From positions 1 to 62,780 of the IMG/VR virus record IMGVR_UViG_3300036828_000344: DNA of 62,780 nt; one strand, written 5' to 3'. The notes beneath the pieces are model-generated. The model saw nothing but the letters and a program-made list of their open reading frames with translations, did not search any database and was not told the DNA's origin. Positions 15,253 through 61,657 of the stretch are shown piece after piece (within the stretch, counting starts at the first letter, position 1; each line of letters opens with the position of its first letter). The translations under genes and the position numbers were made by a program. Source of the DNA: a virus.

Positions 15253-15666
15253 TCAGTCTTTCTTCGCGCGGAGCGTACCATCCTGCACGTTCCACTCAAG
15301 CTCCACGCCCTCATCCGCGAGGGTATCGGCTGCCTGGTTCATCTGGTCTTGCTCTGGCAGCACAGGCAGCTCGCCCGGCTTGCCGAACTGGATGCCGGAC
15401 GTATCCACGCCCTGCGCCCGGAGGGCTCCGGTGATGGCTGCCTGTGACCGTCGCCTCTGCCACCGGAAGGTGGAAATGGTGAACGCGACTACTCCGGCCG
15501 TACCGGCGATGATGCCGACTGCGATCAGCATGTAGATCAGCGTCTGGATGATGACCTCATGGTAGATGTAGATCATGATGCCAGCTGCGATCAGCATGAT
15601 GAGGACGGCTAGTGCTGGGGACATCTGTGCGCGGCTCGCGCTCCGCTCCATCCATCGCCTAATCAT
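15253..15666 (-). CDS. Two-helix membrane protein, 137 aa
   Basis: ATG 15666 overlaps the FtsK-like stop (ATGA). Two membrane helices (ALAVLIMLIAAGIMIYIYH and TLIYMLIAVGIIAGTAGVVAF) with a basic cytoplasmic turn and an acidic soluble tail. Last gene of the SpdB/TraB-like operon; probably an accessory membrane partner. The 15170-15252 stretch downstream holds no gene. Confidence 0.65.
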   Translation of the reverse strand: MIRRWMERSASRAQMSPALAVLIMLIAAGIMIYIYHEVIIQTLIYMLIAVGIIAGTAGVVAFTISTFRWQRRRSQAAITGALRAQGVDTSGIQFGKPGELPVLPEQDQMNQAADTLADEGVELEWNVQDGTLRAKKD

Positions 15667-17336
15667 GCCGCCAGTCCTTTCCGGTTCACCAGCGCGTAGT
15701 CGTGTAGCCACTGCTCGTCATCCATGAAGCCCTGCGTCCAGGTTCGCTTGTTGCCCTGGCACACTAGTATCTTACCCGGTCCTTCCAGACATTCCTCGCC
15801 AGGCGAGCCGATTGTGCGGATGAACTGGTTGGGCTGGAAGCCAGCTGCGCAGAACGCGCTGAACGCGAACTTGAGGGACTGGCCTCCCATCGCCCGGTCG
15901 GTCAGATCCTGGAACATGAACTCACCGAACATGTTGGCCTGCCGGCCCTGCTGGAGTAGCGGTGCGATTGCCTCAGCCCACACAGACGGGCTCGCGCTCG
16001 ATTCGCCAAGAGTCTTGGTCCAGTAGTTCTTGAGCTTGCCGCCGAGGTGGTTGCCCTCATCACAGAAGATCCAGATGTCACCGAAATCAGACAGATGCTT
16101 CCGCCGCTCGCGGACGGCCGTGTACCTTTCCTCCAGGATACCGTTGAGCTTGTAGAAGATATCCCAGATCTTATCCATCTCCGTCACCGGATTGTCGAAG
16201 ATATGGACGCCGGGAATCCCGTGGAGAGCTTCAAAGCTGACCTGCTTGGTGTCGATGCAGTATATCTGGGCCGCTGGATCCTTGTGAGCGATCTGCGCGA
16301 CCTTTACCATGAAGCTCATCGACTTGCCCGTGCCGGAGCCCATGAACCTGCACCACCATGGGAGGTCTCCGTTGTGGCTCTGCACGTACACCGAACCTTC
16401 AGCCCGGACGCCTAGCCCGGTCTCCCGTGCTCCGAGAGCCTGGATGGCCGGGAGGTAGTCGCGGAGCCGCACCATGCTCGGCAGCTTGGGGATGATGACC
16501 GGTATCCAGGCGAGCGAGCGCGGGCTGACGGTAGTGTTCCAGCTGAAGCGAACCTTGCCGATCGTATGTGCCTCAATGATCTCCTGGATTGACTCGCGGT
16601 CGCGCACCAGGGCCGCAAACGTATCCGGTAGCCGTAGCTCGCCGCGCTCCGGGCTCATCTTTAGCAGGCTCATTGCCTCGGCCGAGGAACAGCCCATCTT
16701 GCTCGCGAGTAGCGAAGCCAGGACGTTCTTGGGGATGCCTTCCAGCTGTGGCTTCTCTTCCTCAACGAGAATCGGCCTCGTGCCGACCGTCATTGCGTCG
16801 GCTCCAAACACCCGCTTGGCGACCTGCGTCTGCGCCATGGCCGGCGCATGGACCGGATGAGTCTTGCGGTAGCTCGCGCGAGCCCGGATAATCCAGATCG
16901 CGAGCCGGAGCATAACCAGGCAGAAGATCAGGATGACTATGGCGCGGATCGTATCGGCCGGAGCGAACGCCAGGCAGCTTAGCAGGACCAGGACGGTGAA
17001 GACAGCCAGGTTGTTGCGGATGGCCCGGTAAAGTCGCGAGTGGGGCGTGAAGTAGACAAGTGTGCCTTCCGGAGTCGCTTTCTTGGTGCCTCCGGCCGCA
17101 GACCGGAGTCGCCTCTCATCGCCAAAAGACTTCTCTGGATGGAAGTGTGCGCCCGTGTGGAACCGTACCAGTACGCGGTGGATCTTGCCGGGCCGTCCGG
17201 GATGTCGCCAGCCGAGGTATTCCTGACCGTAGCCGTTGAGGATCCACGCGGAAGCCGTGATAATGTACAGCCCAAAGTAGACCAGGAACGGTATCCACCA
17301 CTGTACGTGGAGGCCACGCAAGATCAGTCCGGTCAT
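15663..17336 (-). CDS. FtsK/SpoIIIE/TraB-like DNA translocase
   Basis: 557 residues. Two N-terminal hydrophobic regions (about 8-35 and 108-150) anchor it in the membrane. Walker A GSGTGKS lies near residue 333 and Walker B IWIFCDEGN near 420, followed by FMFQDLTDRA and a C-terminal sensor region. Family members pump double-stranded DNA; in Streptomyces plasmids a related protein (TraB) moves plasmid DNA between hyphae and recognises short direct repeats. At 557 residues it lacks an obvious separate winged-helix gamma domain. It is coupled to a DUF2637 protein upstream (TAATG), the partner seen on such plasmids. Confidence 0.85.
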   Translation of the reverse strand: MTGLILRGLHVQWWIPFLVYFGLYIITASAWILNGYGQEYLGWRHPGRPGKIHRVLVRFHTGAHFHPEKSFGDERRLRSAAGGTKKATPEGTLVYFTPHSRLYRAIRNNLAVFTVLVLLSCLAFAPADTIRAIVILIFCLVMLRLAIWIIRARASYRKTHPVHAPAMAQTQVAKRVFGADAMTVGTRPILVEEEKPQLEGIPKNVLASLLASKMGCSSAEAMSLLKMSPERGELRLPDTFAALVRDRESIQEIIEAHTIGKVRFSWNTTVSPRSLAWIPVIIPKLPSMVRLRDYLPAIQALGARETGLGVRAEGSVYVQSHNGDLPWWCRFMGSGTGKSMSFMVKVAQIAHKDPAAQIYCIDTKQVSFEALHGIPGVHIFDNPVTEMDKIWDIFYKLNGILEERYTAVRERRKHLSDFGDIWIFCDEGNHLGGKLKNYWTKTLGESSASPSVWAEAIAPLLQQGRQANMFGEFMFQDLTDRAMGGQSLKFAFSAFCAAGFQPNQFIRTIGSPGEECLEGPGKILVCQGNKRTWTQGFMDDEQWLHDYALVNRKGLAA

Positions 17337-18232
17337 TACCCACTCTTCTCATGAGCCTCGCGGTAGGCAGCCTTGACGTCATCCGGTAGCGGGCCGCGAC
17401 GGCCAACACGGCCACGGTACTCCGGACGGTCTAGCGCCCATTCACGAATGTGGATGTCTGGCTTGTGACGGCCTTCCCAGGTACCGTCACGTGGAGCGGC
17501 CTCGCGCCGGTCGCGGTGCTGCTTGAGAACTTCCGGAGGCGCGACCTCGGCCGTGCGTTCCTGGACCGGCTCTGCGCCGCTGCTGGCCGGCTCTGCGGGT
17601 GCGGGCTCGATACGCTCGCGGACGTTCCGGACGGCTCGCGCCTCGCGCTTGAATTCCTCAGCCAGCGTCAGCGCCACGATCTGGAGCGCAGATGAACGGG
17701 CCACGACAATGTCGCGGAGGTCGCGCAGTGTGGAGAGTGGGAACAGGATCCAGCGTATGATGCCGTACTTGGGCAGTGGCGATGGGTAGATGGAACCGGC
17801 TCGCGCTTGCGCCTTGCGCCGCTCATAGTGGATGTGAATGTCGTACAGGACGGCTGCTATGACGGGAAGGCTCGCCCACATTAGCCATGCGCCGGGAGGC
17901 TCGCCGGCCAGCCGGGCGTGGAAGGTCTGGAGGAATGCCGACACGAGCGCCAGACAGTTGACGAATATGCGCGGCTTGGAGCCAGACATTCCCTTCTGTG
18001 CATACTTTAGCGAGTAGTCGGCTCCGACCAGAGCCGCACCGTCAAAGCAGGTACTCATGAAGATCGCGATGTATGGCGGCACGCCAAAGTGGCGCGCGAC
18101 CCAGAAAAGCGAGTAAGCGCTCACGCCGAGAATTGGCACGAGTACGAGCAGCCAGATAAAGCGGGTGTAAGCTACCCGCGCGAACGCTGCCAGCCTACTC
18201 CGGTAAGAGCCGGTAGGCGTAGGATCGGACAT
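17336..18232 (-). CDS. DUF2637 (SpdB-like) membrane protein
   Basis: 298 residues. Four hydrophobic helices within the first ~140 residues (FIWLLVLVPILGVSAYSLFWVA; PYIAIFMSTCFDGAALVGADYSL; IFVNCLALVSAFLQTF; WLMWASLPVIAAVLYDIHI) match the DUF2637 family of Streptomyces plasmid spread proteins. A long charged cytoplasmic tail (Glu/Arg/Pro-rich) follows. SpdB proteins assist intramycelial plasmid spreading with TraB. In a phage genome this is unusual. Start ATG 18232. Confidence 0.8.
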   Translation of the reverse strand: MSDPTPTGSYRSRLAAFARVAYTRFIWLLVLVPILGVSAYSLFWVARHFGVPPYIAIFMSTCFDGAALVGADYSLKYAQKGMSGSKPRIFVNCLALVSAFLQTFHARLAGEPPGAWLMWASLPVIAAVLYDIHIHYERRKAQARAGSIYPSPLPKYGIIRWILFPLSTLRDLRDIVVARSSALQIVALTLAEEFKREARAVRNVRERIEPAPAEPASSGAEPVQERTAEVAPPEVLKQHRDRREAAPRDGTWEGRHKPDIHIREWALDRPEYRGRVGRRGPLPDDVKAAYREAHEKSG

Positions 18233-18269
18233 AAGCCCTCCAGTTTCTCCGCTTAGCTGGTGGGCTAGG

Positions 18270-18299
18270 CTCCACCGAGGACGGCCATTCTCGGTGGGG
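18270..18299 (-). terminator. Hairpin between the iterons and the SpdB-like gene
   Basis: CCACCGAG / CTCGGTGG arms, extended to 10 bp with one wobble, loop about 10 nt. Lies between the HTH gene and the SpdB-like gene; could end the regulator transcript or act as a leader structure. Confidence 0.5.
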
Positions 18300-18375
18300 C
18301 CGTAATAGCCCGTTATGGCAATGATACCCTCTTATCACTTACTTAGTCGAGCATCTTTCGCGGGCTCGCTTTCCG

Positions 18376-18473
18376 GTAGGCGTAAGCGGTAAGCGGTAAG
18401 CGTGGAAAGTACGCGGTTCGCGGTAAGCTGTAGGTGGTTTTAGAAAGCGCGAGCGAGTAAGCGGCCATAAGCG
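18376..18473. repeat. GTAAGCG iteron cluster upstream of the SpdB/TraB-like operon
   Basis: Three head-to-tail copies of the 7-mer GTAAGCG lie at 18382-18402, with further copies GTAAGC at 18423, GTAAGCG at 18457 and ATAAGCG at 18467, plus an overlapping GTAGGCG at 18376. All are in the same orientation, in non-coding DNA between the HTH regulator and the membrane/translocase operon. Short same-orientation repeats beside traB are the form of clt recognition sites on Streptomyces plasmids, and also of replication or partition iterons. Confidence 0.7.
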
Positions 18474-18474
18474 C

Positions 18475-18963
18475 TCAGCGGCCGGCATCCCGCAAAAATC
18501 GCCGGATCTGGCCCGGTAGCTCGCCAAGGATCACCCAGTCATCATCGGTGATGAGGTCGATGTAGGCCGGCTGCCCGACTAGCGTTGCCATGGCCATGAT
18601 GATGCCATGCGCGCTGTGGTCCTCGCCCTCGTGATCATTGCGCCGCTTCTGGCCGGTATCGCCGTCACCGTCAATGTCGCCACGAATCTCCGGCGAGTTG
18701 TAGACCGTATTGAAGTTGGGCAGCTGGTCATACGATAGGCCCAGCTTCTGGCCAACGGTATCCCAGCAGTTGAACATGTACCGGACGTGCGTATGGCTCT
18801 TGCCGATCTCGCGGCCTAGCTCGCGCCGTGACTTGCCTTCTGTGACCTCTTGCCAGATCAGCTCTGCGGCTGCCCAGCGGTGATAGCTGGTCACGTGTTC
18901 TTCGCCTTCAGCTATCGACTCGTGCTCGATGATCTCCGATACGCGGTCAAGTTTGGCGGCCAT
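18475..18963 (-). CDS. HTH DNA-binding protein (ParB/regulator-like)
   Basis: 162 residues. Residues about 42-65 (GKSRRELGREIGKSHTHVRYMF) form a helix-turn-helix of the sort found in ParB-like and plasmid regulator proteins. The middle is acidic (DIDGDGDTG) and the C-terminal ~50 residues are helical. It starts 10 bp from a perfect palindrome and ends next to the GTAAGCG repeats. Either could be its binding site, and the first suggests autoregulation. Confidence 0.7.
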   Translation of the reverse strand: MAAKLDRVSEIIEHESIAEGEEHVTSYHRWAAAELIWQEVTEGKSRRELGREIGKSHTHVRYMFNCWDTVGQKLGLSYDQLPNFNTVYNSPEIRGDIDGDGDTGQKRRNDHEGEDHSAHGIIMAMATLVGQPAYIDLITDDDWVILGELPGQIRRFLRDAGR

Positions 18964-19005: not shown

Positions 19006-19542
19006 ATGACTATTAAGGCTATCGAGACGCGGTATGACGGATACAAGTTCCGGTCACGGCTGGAAGCACGCTGGGCTGTGTTCTTCAATGAGCTGAGGAT
19101 TGACTGGGAGTATGAGCCGGAGGGCTTTACGGTCGATACTCCGCGCGGCCGGATCAATTACCTGCCCGACTTCTGGCTAGGCACCGGGCAATGGGCCGAG
19201 GTCAAGGGATTTCTGGACCCTGCCGGAATGAGCCGTCTCTACGCGCTCGCCTGTGGGATGTCACTCTGCGGCTCCGGGCACGACCTCGTTGTGTTTGGCG
19301 ATGTGCCACGTCTCCACTCGATTGCCTGGCCGGTTCAGCTGCACTACCATCGACGGCTCTGGGGTGTGGCGTGGCGACCGGAGCCCGGCTGCCCCATGAA
19401 ACGGCCGCATGTCGCGATTGAGGACAGTTTTGAGACGGGGCAGCGCCTGACCGATGGGTTCCCGTTCGGCGTTCCCGACTGGGCGCAGGATGGCCTGCGC
19501 CGCGCTCGCGAGGCGCGGTTTGAATGGGGTGAGTCCGGATGA
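19006..19542 (+). CDS. PD-(D/E)XK nuclease-like protein
   Basis: 178 residues. YKFRSRLEARWAVFF near residue 12 supplies the Glu of motif I, YLPDFWLG near 50 the catalytic Asp, and WAEVKGF near 62 the E-x-K. This compact core is frequent in actinophage proteins with a restriction-endonuclease or resolvase-like fold. The role (repair, recombination, host takeover) is not readable. First of three rightward genes under the palindromic operator; probably leaderless. Confidence 0.7.
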   Translation: MTIKAIETRYDGYKFRSRLEARWAVFFNELRIDWEYEPEGFTVDTPRGRINYLPDFWLGTGQWAEVKGFLDPAGMSRLYALACGMSLCGSGHDLVVFGDVPRLHSIAWPVQLHYHRRLWGVAWRPEPGCPMKRPHVAIEDSFETGQRLTDGFPFGVPDWAQDGLRRAREARFEWGESG

Positions 19543-33562: not shown

Positions 33563-35218
33563 GTGGAAATAGCACCAAGGGATAGGCTTGTTACTATCCC
33601 GGACGGACTTCCCAGCCTAACACTCGGCTGGGAGGGCATTCATTGGGCCACGAAATACCTTAGGCAGCCGGACGGCCCGAATGCTGGCGACCGCTGGCAG
33701 TTTATTGAGTCGCAGGTGCGCTTTATTCTGTGGTGGTATTCCCTGGACGAGAATGGGCGCTGGACTTATTACCACGGCGTGCGCCGGTTTGCTAAGGGAT
33801 ACGGCAAATCTCCGTTCGCGGCCGTCATGTCGATGATTGAGCTACTCGCGCCGGTACGCCTAGACCGGTTTGCGCCTAATGTGCCCGGAGGCTGTATTGG
33901 CCGGCAGGTATCGATGCCGCTAGTACAGATTGGCGCGACCTCGCATGACCAGGCTAATATCAATACAATGCGAATGGTTCGCGCGCTGCTCCCAAAGAAT
34001 TCTCGCATTCTGCGGGATTACGACGTTGAGGCCGGGAAGACAATCTTCCATGTGCCTGGTGGCGGGCAGCTAATGGTGATTACTAGCTCGCCCACTACCG
34101 AGGAAGGCGCGCTGACTACATTCGCCATTCTGGACCAGACTGAGAGCTTCCTTCCTAATAATGGCGGTGTAGACCTCGCGGAGGTAATGGACCGGAACGT
34201 CGGCAAGTCGGGCTCGCGGATTATTGAGACCAGCAATGCTTGGGAGCCCGGCAAGGAATCGGTCGCGGAGACCACATTCGATGCCTGGGTCGCGCAGGAG
34301 GAAGGCCGGCTCAAGGGCAAGGGCAAAATCCTTTATGACTGCCGGCAGGCTCCGCCAGATATTGACTTTGATGATGTGGCGTCTATCCGGAAGGCTATCG
34401 AGTATGCCTATGGCGATGCCTACTGGGTCGATGTTGAGACTATTCTGGAGCGAATTCTAAGCCCACGGACTCCGCTTGACGTTAGCAAGCGCTTTTACCT
34501 CAACTGGCCGGAGAGCCCTGAGGATGCCTGGACTACGCAGCAGCGCTGGGCGAGAATGGCTGACCGGGAATTCCGCATTCCGGACGGCTCTGACATTGCG
34601 ATGGCATTCGACGGCTCGCGAGTCGATGACGCGACCGCATTGATTGGCTGCCATATCGGGACTGGCTTTACATTCTCGCTGGGAATCTGGGAGCCGAGGA
34701 AAGGACTCAAGTATGTACCCTCGGCCGAGGTCCATGAGGCCATTAGGCAGGCCAAGGAAAGGTTCCATGTCTGTGCTTTCTTTGCTGACGTCAAGGAATG
34801 GGAAGAGAGCACAAAGATTACCTGGCGCGAGATGTTTGAGGATGATCTCGATGTATGGGCCGTTCCCGGAGGCCGCGATCCACAGCCGGTAGCCTGGGAT
34901 ATGCGGAGCCATGTAGGCGAATTTACGCAGGCTGCGGAAATGGTCCTGAGTGAAATCGAGTCGCCGGAGGATGAGCCGGTATTCCATCATGATGGCGATG
35001 GAGTCCTCGGCCGTCATGTAACGAATGCGCGCCGGAGGCCCAACCGATGGGGCACTTCCATAGGTAAGGAATCACCCAAGAGCTACAACAAGATTGACGG
35101 TGCGGTCGCTATGATTATCGCGCGACATGCCCGGAGGCTAGTCCTCGCGAGCAAGGTCTATAAGGAACGCAAATCGTCCGGCGAAAAGCGCGGCGGCAAA
35201 GTCTGGAGCTTCTCATGA
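33563..35218 (+). CDS. terL: Large terminase subunit
   Basis: 551 residues, GTG start. ATPase Walker A-like FAKGYGKSP at residues 77-84 and Walker B with catalytic Glu in FAILDQTESF near 192. The nuclease half has IAMAFDGSRVDDATAL near 348, FFADVKEWEE near 408, and KIDGAVAMIIARHA near 510 (acidic triad of the RNase H fold). Drives DNA packaging through the portal and cuts it. The portal start overlaps its stop. Confidence 0.92.
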   Translation: MEIAPRDRLVTIPDGLPSLTLGWEGIHWATKYLRQPDGPNAGDRWQFIESQVRFILWWYSLDENGRWTYYHGVRRFAKGYGKSPFAAVMSMIELLAPVRLDRFAPNVPGGCIGRQVSMPLVQIGATSHDQANINTMRMVRALLPKNSRILRDYDVEAGKTIFHVPGGGQLMVITSSPTTEEGALTTFAILDQTESFLPNNGGVDLAEVMDRNVGKSGSRIIETSNAWEPGKESVAETTFDAWVAQEEGRLKGKGKILYDCRQAPPDIDFDDVASIRKAIEYAYGDAYWVDVETILERILSPRTPLDVSKRFYLNWPESPEDAWTTQQRWARMADREFRIPDGSDIAMAFDGSRVDDATALIGCHIGTGFTFSLGIWEPRKGLKYVPSAEVHEAIRQAKERFHVCAFFADVKEWEESTKITWREMFEDDLDVWAVPGGRDPQPVAWDMRSHVGEFTQAAEMVLSEIESPEDEPVFHHDGDGVLGRHVTNARRRPNRWGTSIGKESPKSYNKIDGAVAMIIARHARRLVLASKVYKERKSSGEKRGGKVWSFS

Positions 35219-54794: not shown

Positions 54795-57107
54795 TCATCC
54801 TTCTGGATCGATTACCCAAATCTTTTCGATCATTACCGGAGTGCCGAATCCGGCTATCCGGTACCCGGCTATCACCACTACATCGTGGTTGACATGAATG
54901 GTGCCTAGCTTTCTCTGTAGGTGTGGGAACTTCCACCGGTTTACCCGGCCATAGACTTCCTCATCACTCGTGTCGTACATATGCAGGGTAGCTCGCTTGA
55001 TAAGGTCGGGCCGCTTCAGCTCCGCAAGGATTTCCTCAACTTCACGGCCGCTGCGGCTCCGCTCGTCCTCCACAATGTCCTTATACTCTACTCTCCGGAC
55101 AACGCCTTCATAAACCACCCATGGTCCGGGCGCGAATCGCCTGCCGCGATCTGCGTTCCTTACTACTTCTATAGAAGCTAGCTGTTCACCGTTATGTGTC
55201 GGCTGTGGGACTTCCTTCTGTCGCCGGAGCCAGCGGTTAACGGAGGCGAGCTTGCGCTCTGTCCGGTAAAGACCGAATGGGTCGTTGGCGGCCGCAAACT
55301 CGGCCATACGCTCGGCGGTACGGTCTCCGATACCCGGAACGACCGTAAGGTCATAGAAGCTACCCCAGCCGCTTGCAGGCCGGGCTGCATCGATTCGCGC
55401 GGCTATCTTATCACCGATTTTTGGCACCTGGTTCCAGCCTGCCAGGATTTCCATGCGCCGCTCGCCGCGCTCGGCCGTGTAATGATGCGGCACCCAGGTC
55501 TGCCGGGAATGGCGCGCGACCGGAGGCTTGATATCTATCGAGTGCGCTAGTGCGTCGCGCATGAGCCGGAATCGCGTCTCTTCCTTACCGGCCTTCGCGA
55601 GCGAGGCCGCATAAAACTCAAGCGGGTAATTTGCCTTGAGCCAGGCAGTCCAGAAGGCCAGCATGCTGTAGCTGATAGCGTGCGCGATGTTGAAGCTATA
55701 GGTACCGGACGTCACGAGCCGCTTCCAGATCCGGTCGGCTAGCTCGCGGTCTATCCCGTGTAGCCGTTCCGCTCCGTCCGCAAAGCTGCCATAGCTGACG
55801 TTGAATGCGGCCTCGCCTAGTTTCTTTGATATGATCCGGCGAATCTGCCCGGCGTGCGTCCAGTCGAATCCCCCGACATCCCGCACAATCTTCAGGATCT
55901 GCTCCTGATATATTATCTGTCCGTAGGTGTCCTTTGTGATTTCGTCCACCACTGGATGAAGCGGCTGAGCTTTCTTTCGTCCATGTCGAACGTCAACGTA
56001 CTCTGCGGTCTGTCCGGAAAATAGCGGGCCAGGACGCGATAGCGCATTGACGTCTGTGATATGCTGGAAATGATCTGGATGGACATCTCGGTTGACGAGC
56101 CTAGTAGCTCTACCCTCAAACTGAAATACTCCGATGACATCTCCGGTACTGAAAATCGAGACGGCTCCAGGGTCAGTATCGGGAATCGCATACAAGTCCT
56201 CCAGGGTTAGGCCGGCCATCTCCAGACAGCGGGCGATCATTCCCATGGTCGATAGGCCAAGGAAGTCTAGCTTTAGGGCTCCGACGTATTCGGCATCATA
56301 CTTGTCGATCGACATTACCTGCGAGCCGTTCTTGGTATACACGGCGCAGATGTCGGTCAGTGGGCTATTCGCGATTACCAGGCCGGCTGCGTGTACGCTC
56401 ATTCCGCGAACGTCGCCTTCAAGCCGGGTAGCCTTTATCAGGTCTGGGTACTCTAGCAGGATATCCTGTGCGGCCGGGAACATATCAAATGTGTCGCCCA
56501 GGGTAGCGTCAAAGCGCGAGTCACCACCCGACCTCTCAATTAGCAGGTTCGCGACTATTTCTGTAGCCCAGGGCGGAATGTCGTATACACGAGCCACATC
56601 CTTGAGGGAATTCTTGCCACGGTACCGGACGAAATTGCCGATGTGTCCGAAACATTCCTTACCGTACTTACCCTCAAGGTACTGCCAGACGAGGTACCGG
56701 TGCTCATCGGAGCAGTCGACGTCAATGTCTGGTGGATCCGGTCGCGATAGGTCAAGGAAGCGCTCGAATACCATCATGGGATAGCGGTGCGGGTCAATCT
56801 CGGTAATCCGGAGTAGCCAAGCTACTACACTGGCCGCTGTGGAGCCGCGACCGGGGCCAAACGGTATGCCGTGATCCTTGCCCCATCGGATCGTGTCGGA
56901 GGTAAACAGGAAGAAATCAGCGAGGCCGCGCTCCAGGATCAGCTCCATCTCATATCTGACGCGGTCAGCGTACCAGTCACGGTGCTCCTGCGGCCGCTCG
57001 CCTATGTTGCGGTACTCCCAGCCAAACCGGAGCCACTTCCACAACAGTTCCTCGGCTTCCGGGCGCGAGCGCTCGCTAATCTTCTCCGCTGTTGCGGTTG
57101 CGGTCAT
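54795..57107 (-). CDS. dnaE: DNA polymerase III alpha subunit, polymerase part (split gene)
   Basis: 770 residues from ATG 57107, which shares a base with the upstream stop (TGATG); longer in-frame starts would run into the 111-aa gene. IPFGPGRGSTAASVVAWLLRITEIDP and PDPPDIDVDCSDEHR (two catalytic Asp) with LKLDFLGLSTMG (third Asp) are the C-family palm; GVFQFEGRATR and the SYSMLAFWTAWLKANYPLEFYAA finger region follow, then a helix-hairpin-helix (TVVPGIGDRTAERMAEF) and an OB-like end. All catalytic residues are present. The PHP domain is encoded separately at 57391. Confidence 0.92.
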   Translation of the reverse strand: MTATATAEKISERSRPEAEELLWKWLRFGWEYRNIGERPQEHRDWYADRVRYEMELILERGLADFFLFTSDTIRWGKDHGIPFGPGRGSTAASVVAWLLRITEIDPHRYPMMVFERFLDLSRPDPPDIDVDCSDEHRYLVWQYLEGKYGKECFGHIGNFVRYRGKNSLKDVARVYDIPPWATEIVANLLIERSGGDSRFDATLGDTFDMFPAAQDILLEYPDLIKATRLEGDVRGMSVHAAGLVIANSPLTDICAVYTKNGSQVMSIDKYDAEYVGALKLDFLGLSTMGMIARCLEMAGLTLEDLYAIPDTDPGAVSIFSTGDVIGVFQFEGRATRLVNRDVHPDHFQHITDVNALSRPGPLFSGQTAEYVDVRHGRKKAQPLHPVVDEITKDTYGQIIYQEQILKIVRDVGGFDWTHAGQIRRIISKKLGEAAFNVSYGSFADGAERLHGIDRELADRIWKRLVTSGTYSFNIAHAISYSMLAFWTAWLKANYPLEFYAASLAKAGKEETRFRLMRDALAHSIDIKPPVARHSRQTWVPHHYTAERGERRMEILAGWNQVPKIGDKIAARIDAARPASGWGSFYDLTVVPGIGDRTAERMAEFAAANDPFGLYRTERKLASVNRWLRRQKEVPQPTHNGEQLASIEVVRNADRGRRFAPGPWVVYEGVVRRVEYKDIVEDERSRSGREVEEILAELKRPDLIKRATLHMYDTSDEEVYGRVNRWKFPHLQRKLGTIHVNHDVVVIAGYRIAGFGTPVMIEKIWVIDPEG

Positions 57108-57442
57108 CAGGTGAGCCAGAGCCAGGGATGGTAAACGGTACCGCTGGCCGTTCTGAATATCGGCGCATGGCATATAACACATTCGCCATAACGGCTCGCT
57201 ATCTCGACTGCTGTCGCGGAAACCGGAGGATTCCGGTAAGAGACCCAGCGGTCATCCGGTCCAAGGTTGACGACCTCCGCATCGGCATTCTCGGTAACGA
57301 CCGTAATGACATCGCGCTCGTGCTCGTTACGCCAGACGAGGATTACCCGGCCGACGAAACAGCGAGCCGGATAGCTCTGCTCGATATAGATTAGCTCACC
57401 CTGGACGGGATTGCCGATGGCCGCTTCCCAGTTGATGTCCAT
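57107..57442 (-). CDS. Small protein inserted between the two dnaE parts, 111 aa
   Basis: ATG 57442 with AAAGAGG upstream, overlapping the PHP gene end by 52 bp, and stop fused to the polymerase start. Beta-rich N-terminal half (GELIYIEQSYPARCFVGRVILVW) and a late CVICHAPIF knuckle. No nuclease or intein motif. Unknown; may be an accessory to the polymerase halves. Confidence 0.65.
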   Translation of the reverse strand: MDINWEAAIGNPVQGELIYIEQSYPARCFVGRVILVWRNEHERDVITVVTENADAEVVNLGPDDRWVSYRNPPVSATAVEIASRYGECVICHAPIFRTASGTVYHPWLWLT

Positions 57443-58377
57443 GGTCTGTCATCCTCTTTGCTGATTGGGTACTGGAGCCGGTCTGCCTTAGGCAGGGTTA
57501 CGTTACAGCCCTCCGCTATCCGGGCCGAGGTCTCGATGGCCTCCCAGGCAGCCGTCCGCGAAAGGCCAGTCTTCATCAGCCGTCCGGCTAGCTCGCGATC
57601 GGATTCCGGTAGCGTCATCGGCACTTCATAATTCCACTCGCGAAGTACGTCATCAATCGAATGCTTGCCGCGATGAACGGCATGAAGGATAGCCTGCATT
57701 TCGCCATCCTCCGGCCGAGGGTAATGGACGTCACAAGTGACTACAAGCGGCACGCCAGTTTCTTTCGACAGCTTTTCATACGCGCGGTTTATCCGGCCGG
57801 ACTTATCCAGCTCCCAGAATGGCTGGACCTCAAGATAGAAGTCATCGCCAAACAGACGCTGGAACCGGTGAATGACTAGCCTTGCATCATCCCAGCCGTA
57901 GCCGTCTCGCGAGGTCGGCTCCGGTATATTCTTACCACCGACCAGAGAGCAGGCGAGCAGCGAGCCCGTACAGCCGGATAGCGCCACGAGACCTTCGCGG
58001 TTAGCCGCGAGGCTTACGCCGGAGACGGTCGGATGATAATGGTAATCCTTCCAGGACTGCGTTATGACCTTGTTGAGGTTCCGGTATCCCGTCTGATTCC
58101 TCGCGAGAATCGTTAGGTGGAATTTGTACTGTCCCCTGTGTTCCTCGTCAACGGCTCCGGTATAAGCCTCCAGCCCAAAGATAGGCTTGATGCCGGCAAT
58201 GAGCGCGTACTTCTCAAGCTGGAAGTGAGAGCTATTCCCGCCATGCTCGGTAAGCGCCATAGCGGTATAGCCGAGGGCGGCAGCGCGCTCGACATGGAAC
58301 CGTGGCAGCTTATGTCCGTCTCCGTGGCTGAAGGTCGAATGGCCGTGGAGATTGACATACTCCATAGCGGGATTCAT
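57391..58377 (-). CDS. dnaE: DNA polymerase III alpha subunit, PHP domain part (split gene)
   Basis: 328 residues. NLHGHSTFSHGDG, ALTEHGGNS, KPIFGLEAYTG, LTILARNQTGYRNL, GLVALSGCTGSLLA and VVTCDVHYPRPED are the successive PHP motifs; metal-binding His residues look largely kept. The sequence ends in CNVTLPKADRLQYPISKEDD, which in intact DnaE leads straight into the segment that opens the polymerase gene. Confidence 0.9.
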   Translation of the reverse strand: MNPAMEYVNLHGHSTFSHGDGHKLPRFHVERAAALGYTAMALTEHGGNSSHFQLEKYALIAGIKPIFGLEAYTGAVDEEHRGQYKFHLTILARNQTGYRNLNKVITQSWKDYHYHPTVSGVSLAANREGLVALSGCTGSLLACSLVGGKNIPEPTSRDGYGWDDARLVIHRFQRLFGDDFYLEVQPFWELDKSGRINRAYEKLSKETGVPLVVTCDVHYPRPEDGEMQAILHAVHRGKHSIDDVLREWNYEVPMTLPESDRELAGRLMKTGLSRTAAWEAIETSARIAEGCNVTLPKADRLQYPISKEDDRPWTSTGKRPSAIPSRVS

Positions 58378-58903: not shown

Positions 58904-59166
58904 TCGCTCGCCTTTCTGACTTGCTCTTTGGTCCAGATACCGTCAAGCTCAGTAGTCGCCGGCCATTGACAGCCGCGACATTTGAGGAGTACGGTCGTTG
59001 TGCTGCTCGCCGGCATACGCGGGTGAATAGGGCTCGCCGGTAGCTTTACCCCTAGTATATCCCACATATGGACGTGCGCATTACTCGCCATTACCTGGAA
59101 TGCGCCGATGATGTGCTCGGCTATCCGCTGGAATGCCTCGGCGTCTGATGGTGCGTCCTCGGCCAT
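58900..59166 (-). CDS. Hypothetical protein, 88 aa
   Basis: Helical start, then LLKCRGCQWPATTELDGIWT, a half zinc site. Translationally coupled between ThyX and the next gene. Unknown. Confidence 0.55.
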   Translation of the reverse strand: MAEDAPSDAEAFQRIAEHIIGAFQVMASNAHVHMWDILGVKLPASPIHPRMPASSTTTVLLKCRGCQWPATTELDGIWTKEQVRKASE

Positions 59167-60077
59167 TATGGCCTCCGGGCTGCGCCGTAGCTAAGCGGCT
59201 CGTGCGGGTGAATGTCGGTCCACGTCTCCGGCCGGTCGCCTTTTCTGTGGTGCTCTTCCACGCGGTCGCGGATGTCGCAGTGCCGGTCAGCTGGGCCCAT
59301 GAACTCACAGCGGCCGGTCTGATAGCAGACGGGCCGGAACATCCGCACGATTGCTTCCTGCTGCCAGCGTTCCTCGTCCGGGCCGTAGGCGAGGATGGCG
59401 CGGATGATCTGTGCCCAGACCTGCTTCCACTCATACTGCGCTTGCGAGCAGAGCCGGAGCCCGGCGTGATCGATGAGGTTCCGGAGATTCGTGTGGTAGT
59501 GCATCCGGGTACCGATGTTGGTCGGCAGGACTCCGCGAGCGTCCTCGGCCGGAACGCCACCGTTCACCATCCGGCCGTAGCTCGCGGCTATGTACCGGGA
59601 TGTGGTCGTCCACTCGACTCGCAGCGGGTGATCTTCCGCTAGCCTCGCGATGAATTCCGGCATGATGATTGCCGTCTCGGCATCATCCTTGACCGCGAAT
59701 CGCATCGACTCCTGGACGTAGGTAGCCGTCCTCTGCCGGACGGCCTGGTGCGTCCAGCCTCGCGTGACGCCGGAGATGTGGAGGGAGATGCTGACCCATT
59801 CGAGCGGAGCCGGTAGGCCGCGCGCCTTGAGCGCACCGTGGTACCACTCCATCGCCCGTTCCTGCGTCACCAGGCGTGGGTCAGTAAAGACTCCACCCCG
59901 GTATAGCTCGCTGACCGCCGCGACTAGCCGGAGCGGATTCGCGGTCATGTCGACTACCGTGACCGTGGGGCCGCTTGCGTCAACGGGCTCGGCCGAGTAC
60001 ATCGCCTGATCGGCCCAGCGGACGGGCAGCCTAGGCCGGTCGCCCGGATCGTTGGGGTGTGGTCCTGGTCCAGCCAT
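59166..60077 (-). CDS. thyX: FAD-dependent thymidylate synthase-like (ThyX)
   Basis: 303 residues. HQAVRQRTATYVQESMRF near residue 115 aligns with the ThyX signature RHRxxSxxxxSxRY, but the central His is Gln and the first Ser is Thr. LPTNIGTRMHYHTNLRNLIDHAGLRLCSQAQYEWKQV is the C-terminal dUMP/FAD-binding half. It would methylate dUMP to dTMP, or another C5 if divergent. It neighbours the MazG-like and glycosyltransferase genes. Confidence 0.8.
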   Translation of the reverse strand: MAGPGPHPNDPGDRPRLPVRWADQAMYSAEPVDASGPTVTVVDMTANPLRLVAAVSELYRGGVFTDPRLVTQERAMEWYHGALKARGLPAPLEWVSISLHISGVTRGWTHQAVRQRTATYVQESMRFAVKDDAETAIIMPEFIARLAEDHPLRVEWTTTSRYIAASYGRMVNGGVPAEDARGVLPTNIGTRMHYHTNLRNLIDHAGLRLCSQAQYEWKQVWAQIIRAILAYGPDEERWQQEAIVRMFRPVCYQTGRCEFMGPADRHCDIRDRVEEHHRKGDRPETWTDIHPHEPLSYGAARRP

Positions 60078-60340: not shown

Positions 60341-60791
60341 TGCCGTCTCCGTTCTGATTCGCCTGCATTCGCGCATATATCGTCGCGAGCTTACCCATTA
60401 GTATATCGCGCGTCATCTGCGCATCCTTTGTAAAATGCTGAAGCGCGAGAATTCCGGTGAATACCACATCGGCTATCTCGTCCAGCATCGCGCCGAATGC
60501 CTCTGCGTTCTCCGGCTTGCGGGGATTCTGGCCGGTAAACAGGATGAGGTCGGCAATCGACTTGCCGAGAGGAATGAGGATATGGCTAATGCGCGAGTAG
60601 TCCTCATCGGTCGCGTCCGTCATGGAGTCCAGGGCTTCCATGGCCTCGCTCAGTTCCTCGGTGATCTTCGCCACACGGGCCCAGTCCTGCGCCATGGGCT
60701 GGTTCTGGTACTTGACGGCTACCGCTCCGTCCAGCCAGAGGTCGATACTCGCGACTGACTGCCAGTCGATTGTGTCTACCTGATAATTCAT
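60330..60791 (-). CDS. MazG-like nucleotide pyrophosphohydrolase
   Basis: 153 residues. VAKITEELSEAMEALD carries the EExxE pair and GAMLDEIADVVFTGILALQHF the ExxD of the all-alpha NTP pyrophosphatase family. Hydrolyses (d)NTPs or modified nucleotides to NMPs, clearing unwanted precursors or feeding ThyX with dUMP. Confidence 0.8.
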   Translation of the reverse strand: MNYQVDTIDWQSVASIDLWLDGAVAVKYQNQPMAQDWARVAKITEELSEAMEALDSMTDATDEDYSRISHILIPLGKSIADLILFTGQNPRKPENAEAFGAMLDEIADVVFTGILALQHFTKDAQMTRDILMGKLATIYARMQANQNGDGNAH

Positions 60792-61657
60792 TTCTCTCCG
60801 ACCTCCCAGTCAAATGCCTTTGTGGTATGGATATTGCCGAGAATGTAATCGTCAACGTTGAGGCAGTCGGTTATGAAATTCCTCCACCGACAGCGGTACT
60901 TGGCCGGAGGCCGCGAGATATAGCGCTCGCCCCAACGGTCGAAGAATGCCTGGTGAACGCGCGCCCAGGATTCGGCCGACCGGTCATCCATCGACACGCC
61001 ACCGAATTCCGGCCCTGGATTCTGCCGCAACATTCCGTTTGTGGATATCCCGGTATAGATATACCAGGGAACGTTCATGCCTTTGTAGGCATACCGGGCT
61101 AGCTCGACATCCTCGGCCATCCGGAGCTTAGGGTCAAATCCTCCGACGTACTGAACGTTGCCGACGTTCAGGCCAAAGCAGTGATAGCCCAGGCTTCCGT
61201 TGTGGAGCCAGATACCGGGCTCGCGGTAGTTCTCCGCCATAGCGGTACCGCGCGAGAACAGGCCGTGTATTGACTCCCAGGCTCCGATTCCGACAACGTC
61301 ATCACGGGAGGCTGCCGCCAGGAGGCCCATAAGGTCTCCCTTGATGACCTGATCGTCATCGATCATGACGATAGCTTTGTAGCCGCGAGCGTTCGCGTGC
61401 CTGACGCAGAGGTCTCTGGCGTAGCCGATGCCCTTGGCGGGCTCGCTCCATTCCCGTCCGTCGCGCCACATAGGCAGCGCGAGACGGCTCCGGGTAATCG
61501 CCTCTCCGGTCTCCCGCTGGAACTGCCTAGCGGTCGTAACGTGAACCGGTACGGTGGCGTCCTGGGCTGCCAGAGCCTCGTGCACGGCCCTGATAGCGCG
61601 GATGAGGTACCGCGTCCGGTCGCGAGTCGGGATGTAGACTGCGTACTTGTCCGGCAT
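60788..61657 (-). CDS. GT-A glycosyltransferase, possibly of the TET-associated type
   Basis: 289 residues. VYIPTRDRTRYLIRAI at the start, AKGIGYARDLCVRHANARGYKAIVMIDDDQ near residue 100 with the DxD metal motif, and KLRMAEDVELARYAY near 190 as the catalytic acidic region. The pattern recalls phage glycosyltransferases that decorate DNA bases, though protein or surface-sugar targets are possible. It lies in an operon with methyltransferase, SDR and HAD genes. Confidence 0.75.
   Translation of the reverse strand: MPDKYAVYIPTRDRTRYLIRAIRAVHEALAAQDATVPVHVTTARQFQRETGEAITRSRLALPMWRDGREWSEPAKGIGYARDLCVRHANARGYKAIVMIDDDQVIKGDLMGLLAAASRDDVVGIGAWESIHGLFSRGTAMAENYREPGIWLHNGSLGYHCFGLNVGNVQYVGGFDPKLRMAEDVELARYAYKGMNVPWYIYTGISTNGMLRQNPGPEFGGVSMDDRSAESWARVHQAFFDRWGERYISRPPAKYRCRWRNFITDCLNVDDYILGNIHTTKAFDWEVGEK

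Follow-up and report, generated by a model that had tools for sequence, protein, structure and literature searches.

A gene block of plasmid-transfer type in the genome of an uncultured phage

We analysed a 62,780-nucleotide stretch of viral DNA (hereafter the window; IMG/VR record IMGVR_UViG_3300036828_000344), in which four genes on the minus strand, encoding a possible helix-turn-helix (HTH) protein, a DUF2637 membrane protein, an FtsK-class ATPase, and a small membrane protein, lie together in this order as a block. The evidence supports the interpretation that this block is a plasmid-transfer-type membrane translocase module within a phage genome, whose closest non-phage homologs are carried by linear plasmids of Streptomyces. 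The block suggests, without proof, that a group of soil phages of actinobacteria may be able to drive their DNA across membranes or the cross-walls of hyphae with no need for virus particles.

Results

The ATPase belongs to a linear-plasmid family

Judged by its sequence, the ATPase (557 amino acids; positions 15663-17336, minus strand) belongs to the pRL2-11-type family of linear-plasmid proteins and is not a canonical TraB. It scored 140 bits (E = 8e-41) against a hidden Markov model (HMM) of nine Streptomyces and Planobispora plasmid ATPases that included pRL2-11, ≈3 bits against an HMM of TraB and FtsK, and not at all against an HMM of three TraB-type proteins, including the pIJ101 type. 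A direct hhalign comparison with pIJ101 TraB was not significant, and the match to Pfam FtsK_SpoIIIE (E = 3.9e-5) fell just below the curated cutoff. In a tree of motor domains, the phage ATPases nested within the plasmid family, with support of 0.992 for the group of plasmids and phages and 0.896 for the phages together with two plasmid groups.

The sequence motifs agree with this placement. The sequence-only reading of this DNA had proposed an FtsK/TraB-like translocase with the Walker A motif GSGTGKS. That motif is present (MGSGTGKS, residues 332-339, positions 16320-16343, minus strand), as is a Walker B motif (WIFCDEGN, residues 422-429, positions 16050-16073, minus strand), and relatives show almost no variation in the motor region. 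The form xGSGxGKS of Walker A is common to most of the plasmid ATPase family, whereas the TraB and FtsK proteins examined have the form GxSGSGKS or GATGSGKS. Part of the plasmid family also shares [DE]E-x-N at Walker B and the motif GR...FQD; [DE]E-x-N was found in none of the TraB and FtsK proteins examined. Two hydrophobic segments (residues 15-33 and 132-150) would anchor the protein in the membrane. It ends shortly past the motor and has no C-terminal winged helix of the kind that reads the 8-bp repeats of clt; MarR-type matches occur at 594-631 of pIJ101 TraB, but none in the ATPase of the window. Thus, the FtsK-class motor of the earlier proposal stands, whereas identity with TraB proper does not.

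A Foldseek search with the low-confidence model of the ATPase returned FtsK motors first, followed by TcpA and EccC, which are DNA or protein pumps. There was no terminase among these matches, and the ATPase did not match the TerL profile. A separate TerL gene is present at 33563-35218. The sequence-only reading had allowed that profile searches might place the ATPase among packaging ATPases; they placed it instead in the pRL2-11-type plasmid family.

The DUF2637 protein of the phages carries a predicted Lsr2-type tail

The DUF2637 protein (298 amino acids; 17336-18232, minus strand) has predicted hydrophobic segments and matched Pfam PF10935 (E = 1.9e-6; 28.3 bits, above the curated cutoff of 22.8) and PHROG 10376 (E = 2.7e-28). 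Its hhalign profile match to plasmid DUF2637 proteins reached 95.6% (E = 1.2e-8), compared with a weak 38% (E = 3e-4) for SpdB of pIJ101, based on one comparison. The assignment to DUF2637 is confirmed, whereas homology to classical SpdB is at most weak. SpdB2 binds double-stranded DNA (dsDNA), forms oligomers, and interacts with TraB (PMC4170104). An AlphaFold model of the DUF2637 protein had a predicted local distance difference test (pLDDT) score of 50, at which a fold search is meaningless.

The C-terminus of the DUF2637 protein (17345-17461, minus strand) is predicted to be an Lsr2-type DNA-binding domain. A profile of six phage DUF2637 homologs gave solved Lsr2 DNA-binding domains as its top matches (E = 3e-5), and PF23359 matched five of these six homologs, with a best E value of 5.7e-7 and a value of 0.0088 for the member in the window. 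This tail could supply the DNA contact that an ATPase without a winged helix lacks. Because the C-terminal tails of other DUF2637 and SpdB proteins differ from the Lsr2 type, the comparison suggests a modular design, in which one membrane part is combined with exchangeable DNA-binding tails. DUF2637 genes without a neighbouring ATPase gene also occur, in satellite phage Mulchroom and BE-type Streptomyces phages (L009:11331-12287 and L008:5941-6825).

The genes are coupled, and the block is conserved

The DUF2637, ATPase, and small-protein genes are joined by overlapping start and stop codons, as expected of the coupled operon proposed from the sequence. The DUF2637 stop overlaps the ATPase start in TAATG, and the ATPase stop overlaps the small-protein start in GGCATGA (an ATGA overlap). 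The small membrane protein (≈137 amino acids; 15253-15666, minus strand) most likely starts at the ATG at 15666 rather than the GTG at 15711, because the former overlaps the ATPase stop and the L004 and L037 proteins start there as well. The block is surrounded by small non-structural genes, and a divergent gene resembling those for endonucleases and Holliday resolvases (19006-19542, plus strand) adjoins it, in a position kept in L002, L004, and L005.

Related blocks were found in seven other IMG/VR contigs (L002, L003, L004, L005, L012, L037, and L038), in all of which the small-protein gene lies 3' of the ATPase gene. The window, L002, L004, L005, L037, and L038 each have all four genes; the L003 and L012 contigs begin near or inside the block, so that upstream genes are cut off. 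Among the syntenic phage contigs, the two large proteins share 44-83% identity, and the lowest ATPase identity is 45% (L012). Pairwise ratios of nonsynonymous to synonymous substitution rates (dN/dS) were 0.20-0.28 for the ATPase, 0.15-0.32 for DUF2637, and 0.3-0.5 for the two small genes. By these measures, related contigs from uncultured phages have kept the block intact, and purifying selection acts on it there. Because it is conserved and syntenic, with low dN/dS, its presence is more than chance. The search for the same four genes in related phages, which the sequence-only reading had called for, thus recovered a maintained block and not decayed remnants.

A 7-bp repeat array precedes the DUF2637 gene

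The HTH gene (162 amino acids; 18475-18963, minus strand) is separated from the DUF2637 gene by a degenerate array of 7-bp direct repeats (18367-18443; GCTTACC-like on the minus strand). The direct repeats noted earlier are real: this array is the strongest lag-7 periodicity of the whole window, with 41 matches of 70 and 34 for the next best position. In the equivalent region of L002 and L004, lag 7 also peaks with a 70-base frame; with a 60-base frame, the L004 repeat region peaks at lag 14. At the corresponding place, L038 (1594-1784) has an AT-rich array with a unit of ≈12 bp (AATTTCCGCGAA). The clt sites of Streptomyces plasmids are arrays of direct repeats, with 7-bp units in pWTY27 (PMC3583192), and the array in the window is a candidate cis-acting site, either clt-like or an operator. 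A hairpin is present before the DUF2637 gene, but hairpins are common across this genome and we make no claim for it.

The HTH protein is kept in five relatives at 35-59% identity and has a possible KorB/ParB-type HTH at about residues 30-62. It had no Pfam match above the cutoff, and the best, though weak, matches in a profile search against PDB were to KorB (E = 0.36 and 0.62).

Related plasmids share the gene order of the block

The order of regulator or small gene, DUF2637 gene, ATPase gene, and small gene is also found on the linear plasmids pRL2 (the source of pRL2-11), pPR2 of Planobispora rosea, and a plasmid of Streptomyces sp. NBC_00691. Their ATPases are homologous to the phage ATPase over the motor and have in common with it xGSGxGKS and, in part, E-x-N and GR...FQD. 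By contrast, the phage ATPases form a clade of their own, the phage genomes have structural genes, the DUF2637 tails of the plasmids are not of the Lsr2 type, and the small genes are unlike by inspection. On giant linear plasmids, the ATPase gene has a DUF2637 gene on its upstream side, either adjacent or separated from it by small genes, and is followed by conjugation genes of TcpC-like and VirB4-like type. On a 7-kb plasmid, a DUF2637 gene takes the position of spdB, after an FtsK/SpoIIIE gene.

The TraB/SpdB systems of pIJ101 and pSVH1 resemble the phage block in how they would work: each combines an FtsK-class membrane ATPase, a multi-spanning membrane protein with DNA binding, which for the phage protein is predicted, and a direct-repeat site. 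Unlike these systems, the phage ATPase has neither a TraB-profile score nor a C-terminal winged helix, and the DUF2637 protein is only weakly similar to SpdB. The coupling protein TcpA of pCW3 and EccC share the ATPase fold class by Foldseek, but no partner genes of type IV or type VII secretion systems were recognised beside the phage block.

The genome lacks recognisable partition and integration genes

The ends of the window share a 141-bp overlap with one mismatch, so that the record probably holds a complete genome of ≈62.6 kb. The window encodes a terminase, portal, head protease, major head protein, tape measure, and endolysin. Neither the window nor the tested relatives gave a match to ParA, ParB_N, tyrosine integrase, or serine recombinase, whereas the same searches matched ParA, ParB_N, and tyrosine integrase in pZL12 and pZL12-like records. 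Plasmid-like maintenance or segregation, which the sequence-only reading had raised, is thus not supported, though the search for repA and repressor genes was not exhaustive.

No match to DUF2637 or FtsK_SpoIIIE was obtained for pZL12 in the tests run. NZ_CP108353.1 (L010, L051), a 93-kb circular plasmid of Streptomyces NBC_01353, carries virion genes, including that for the major capsid protein, as well as ParA, an integrase, DUF2637, and a 707-amino-acid FtsK-like gene, and looks like an unannotated pZL12-type phage-plasmid. Its ATPase was tested for membership in the phage ATPase subfamily and is not a member. Like the window, pZL12 and the NBC_01353 plasmid combine a phage genome with plasmid-transfer functions, and the latter has DUF2637 with an FtsK-like gene; unlike the window, they have ParA, ParB, and integrase, and the NBC_01353 ATPase is of another subfamily. 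The joining of phage and plasmid transfer is therefore already known from pZL12. What is new here is the lineage, the Lsr2-type tail, and a phage that carries this subfamily of ATPase.

A scan of genome contigs with the phage ATPase alignment gave no match. In 396 genomes of the phylum and 298 of the family of a plasmid-bearing Streptomyces, there was no phage-type copy; weaker matches to plasmid-type ATPases, of at most 126 bits, were the only ones returned, and no host was therefore assigned. Likewise, tblastn searches of 50,697 phage records with the ATPases of the window and of the distant L012 contig gave no match.

Elsewhere in the window, DNA polymerase I is seemingly encoded by two adjacent genes (54795-58377, minus strand), with the polymerase part at 54795-57182 and, at 57391-58377, a part that matches the same PHROG in its N-terminal portion. 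Modified bases are hinted at by two further genes, one for a ThyX thymidylate synthase (59166-60077, minus strand) and one with weak similarity to a TET-associated glycosyltransferase (60788-61657, minus strand).

Discussion

We favour, at about even odds, the interpretation that the block encodes a membrane-bound dsDNA translocase, related to those of linear-plasmid transfer-type loci, by which the DNA of the phage would cross septal walls or travel from hypha to hypha. The block would have been acquired from transfer-type loci of actinobacterial linear plasmids or would share an ancestor with them. Our data show the homology, gene order, conservation, domain composition, and repeats, with homology and conservation well established; the membrane assembly, its binding of DNA, and the direction and destination of the DNA are what we infer. 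The N-terminal hydrophobic segments would seat the ATPase in the membrane, where it would pump phage DNA. The DUF2637 protein would build the membrane assembly and grip DNA by its Lsr2-like tail, replacing the winged helix that the ATPase is missing, and the small membrane protein would complete the complex. The HTH protein, the Lsr2 tail, or both would act on the 7-bp array as an operator or a transfer or recognition site. As a result, phage DNA would pass hyphal cross-walls or move between hyphae during infection. A bolder version, in which a non-integrating, possibly lytic lineage spreads through the mycelium as naked DNA by means of the plasmid-type translocase and in a single infection takes over many compartments before virions are released, is doubtful.

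Several points weigh against transfer through the mycelium. The main weakness is the host: the nearest terminases to that of the window are those of Corynebacterium phages (50%), and Corynebacterium phages do not use mycelial hosts, whereas the plasmid homologs of the block come mostly from mycelial genera. The AlphaFold model of the ATPase is poor (mean pLDDT 53), and we found no experiment in the literature showing transfer by a pRL2-11-type ATPase. The repeat unit varies among relatives, with weak repeats in L005, and the array could be no more than an operator; a role as operator for the HTH protein would explain it just as well. Moreover, because BE-type Streptomyces phages and satellite phage Mulchroom carry DUF2637 without a neighbouring ATPase, the role of DUF2637 may be unrelated to transfer.

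Some of this evidence could be accommodated if the translocase served segregation within the cell, clearing or distributing the DNA of the phage where septa close, or into prespores of the infected host, in the manner of FtsK/SpoIIIE and without cell-to-cell transfer. The ATPase fold is FtsK-class by Foldseek, an HTH with weak KorB/ParB likeness next to a repeat array looks centromere-like, and, according to a published view, the ftsK and parB genes found in actinophages may influence how the host develops (PMC10117723); PMC7650747 makes no mention of ftsK in actinophages. We nevertheless regard segregation as unlikely, given the lack of ParA and ParB_N domains, the absence of the FtsK-type winged helix, and an ATPase sequence far from FtsK and near the plasmid transfer-type ATPases. 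The DUF2637 genes without an ATPase, as well as the position of the block among small non-structural genes, would also suit host takeover or superinfection exclusion, with a complex in the membrane that keeps competing DNA from entering or changes the host membrane itself. Exclusion would not require a DNA-pumping ATPase that is conserved and whose Walker motifs are intact, however, nor a tail that binds DNA, and the gene order matches that of plasmids, which makes this role improbable.

A plasmid-like prophage, in which the block would enable an extrachromosomal lysogen to conjugate and to persist stably, has a precedent in pZL12, whose conjugal transfer is published according to the statement in PMC3583192 that cites it, and in the pZL12-like NBC_01353 plasmid with its DUF2637 and FtsK-like genes. 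The lack of partition, integrase, and recombinase matches in the window and the tested relatives makes it a rather improbable account of them, although repA and repressor genes were searched less than exhaustively. That homologs reside on plasmids might indicate functionless cargo from a recent plasmid insertion, but the block is conserved across six or more phage contigs, among which ATPase identity falls as low as 45% and dN/dS is ≈0.2-0.28, and we consider this very unlikely; conservation and purifying selection contradict decay and rule out decayed cargo. Finally, although the ATPase is encoded by a phage genome, a role in DNA packaging is scarcely credible and is ruled out by the separate TerL and by the Foldseek matches, which are of FtsK class and include no terminase.

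If phage DNA transfer by this translocase is correct, the virus would move in two ways, as particles and as DNA via the cell network of its own host, and the border between phages and conjugative plasmids would be blurred in a lineage in which no partition or integration genes were detected. The way in which phages spread inside multicellular bacteria would also become testable. The Lsr2-tailed DUF2637 protein hints that one membrane part may serve with swappable DNA-binding tails.

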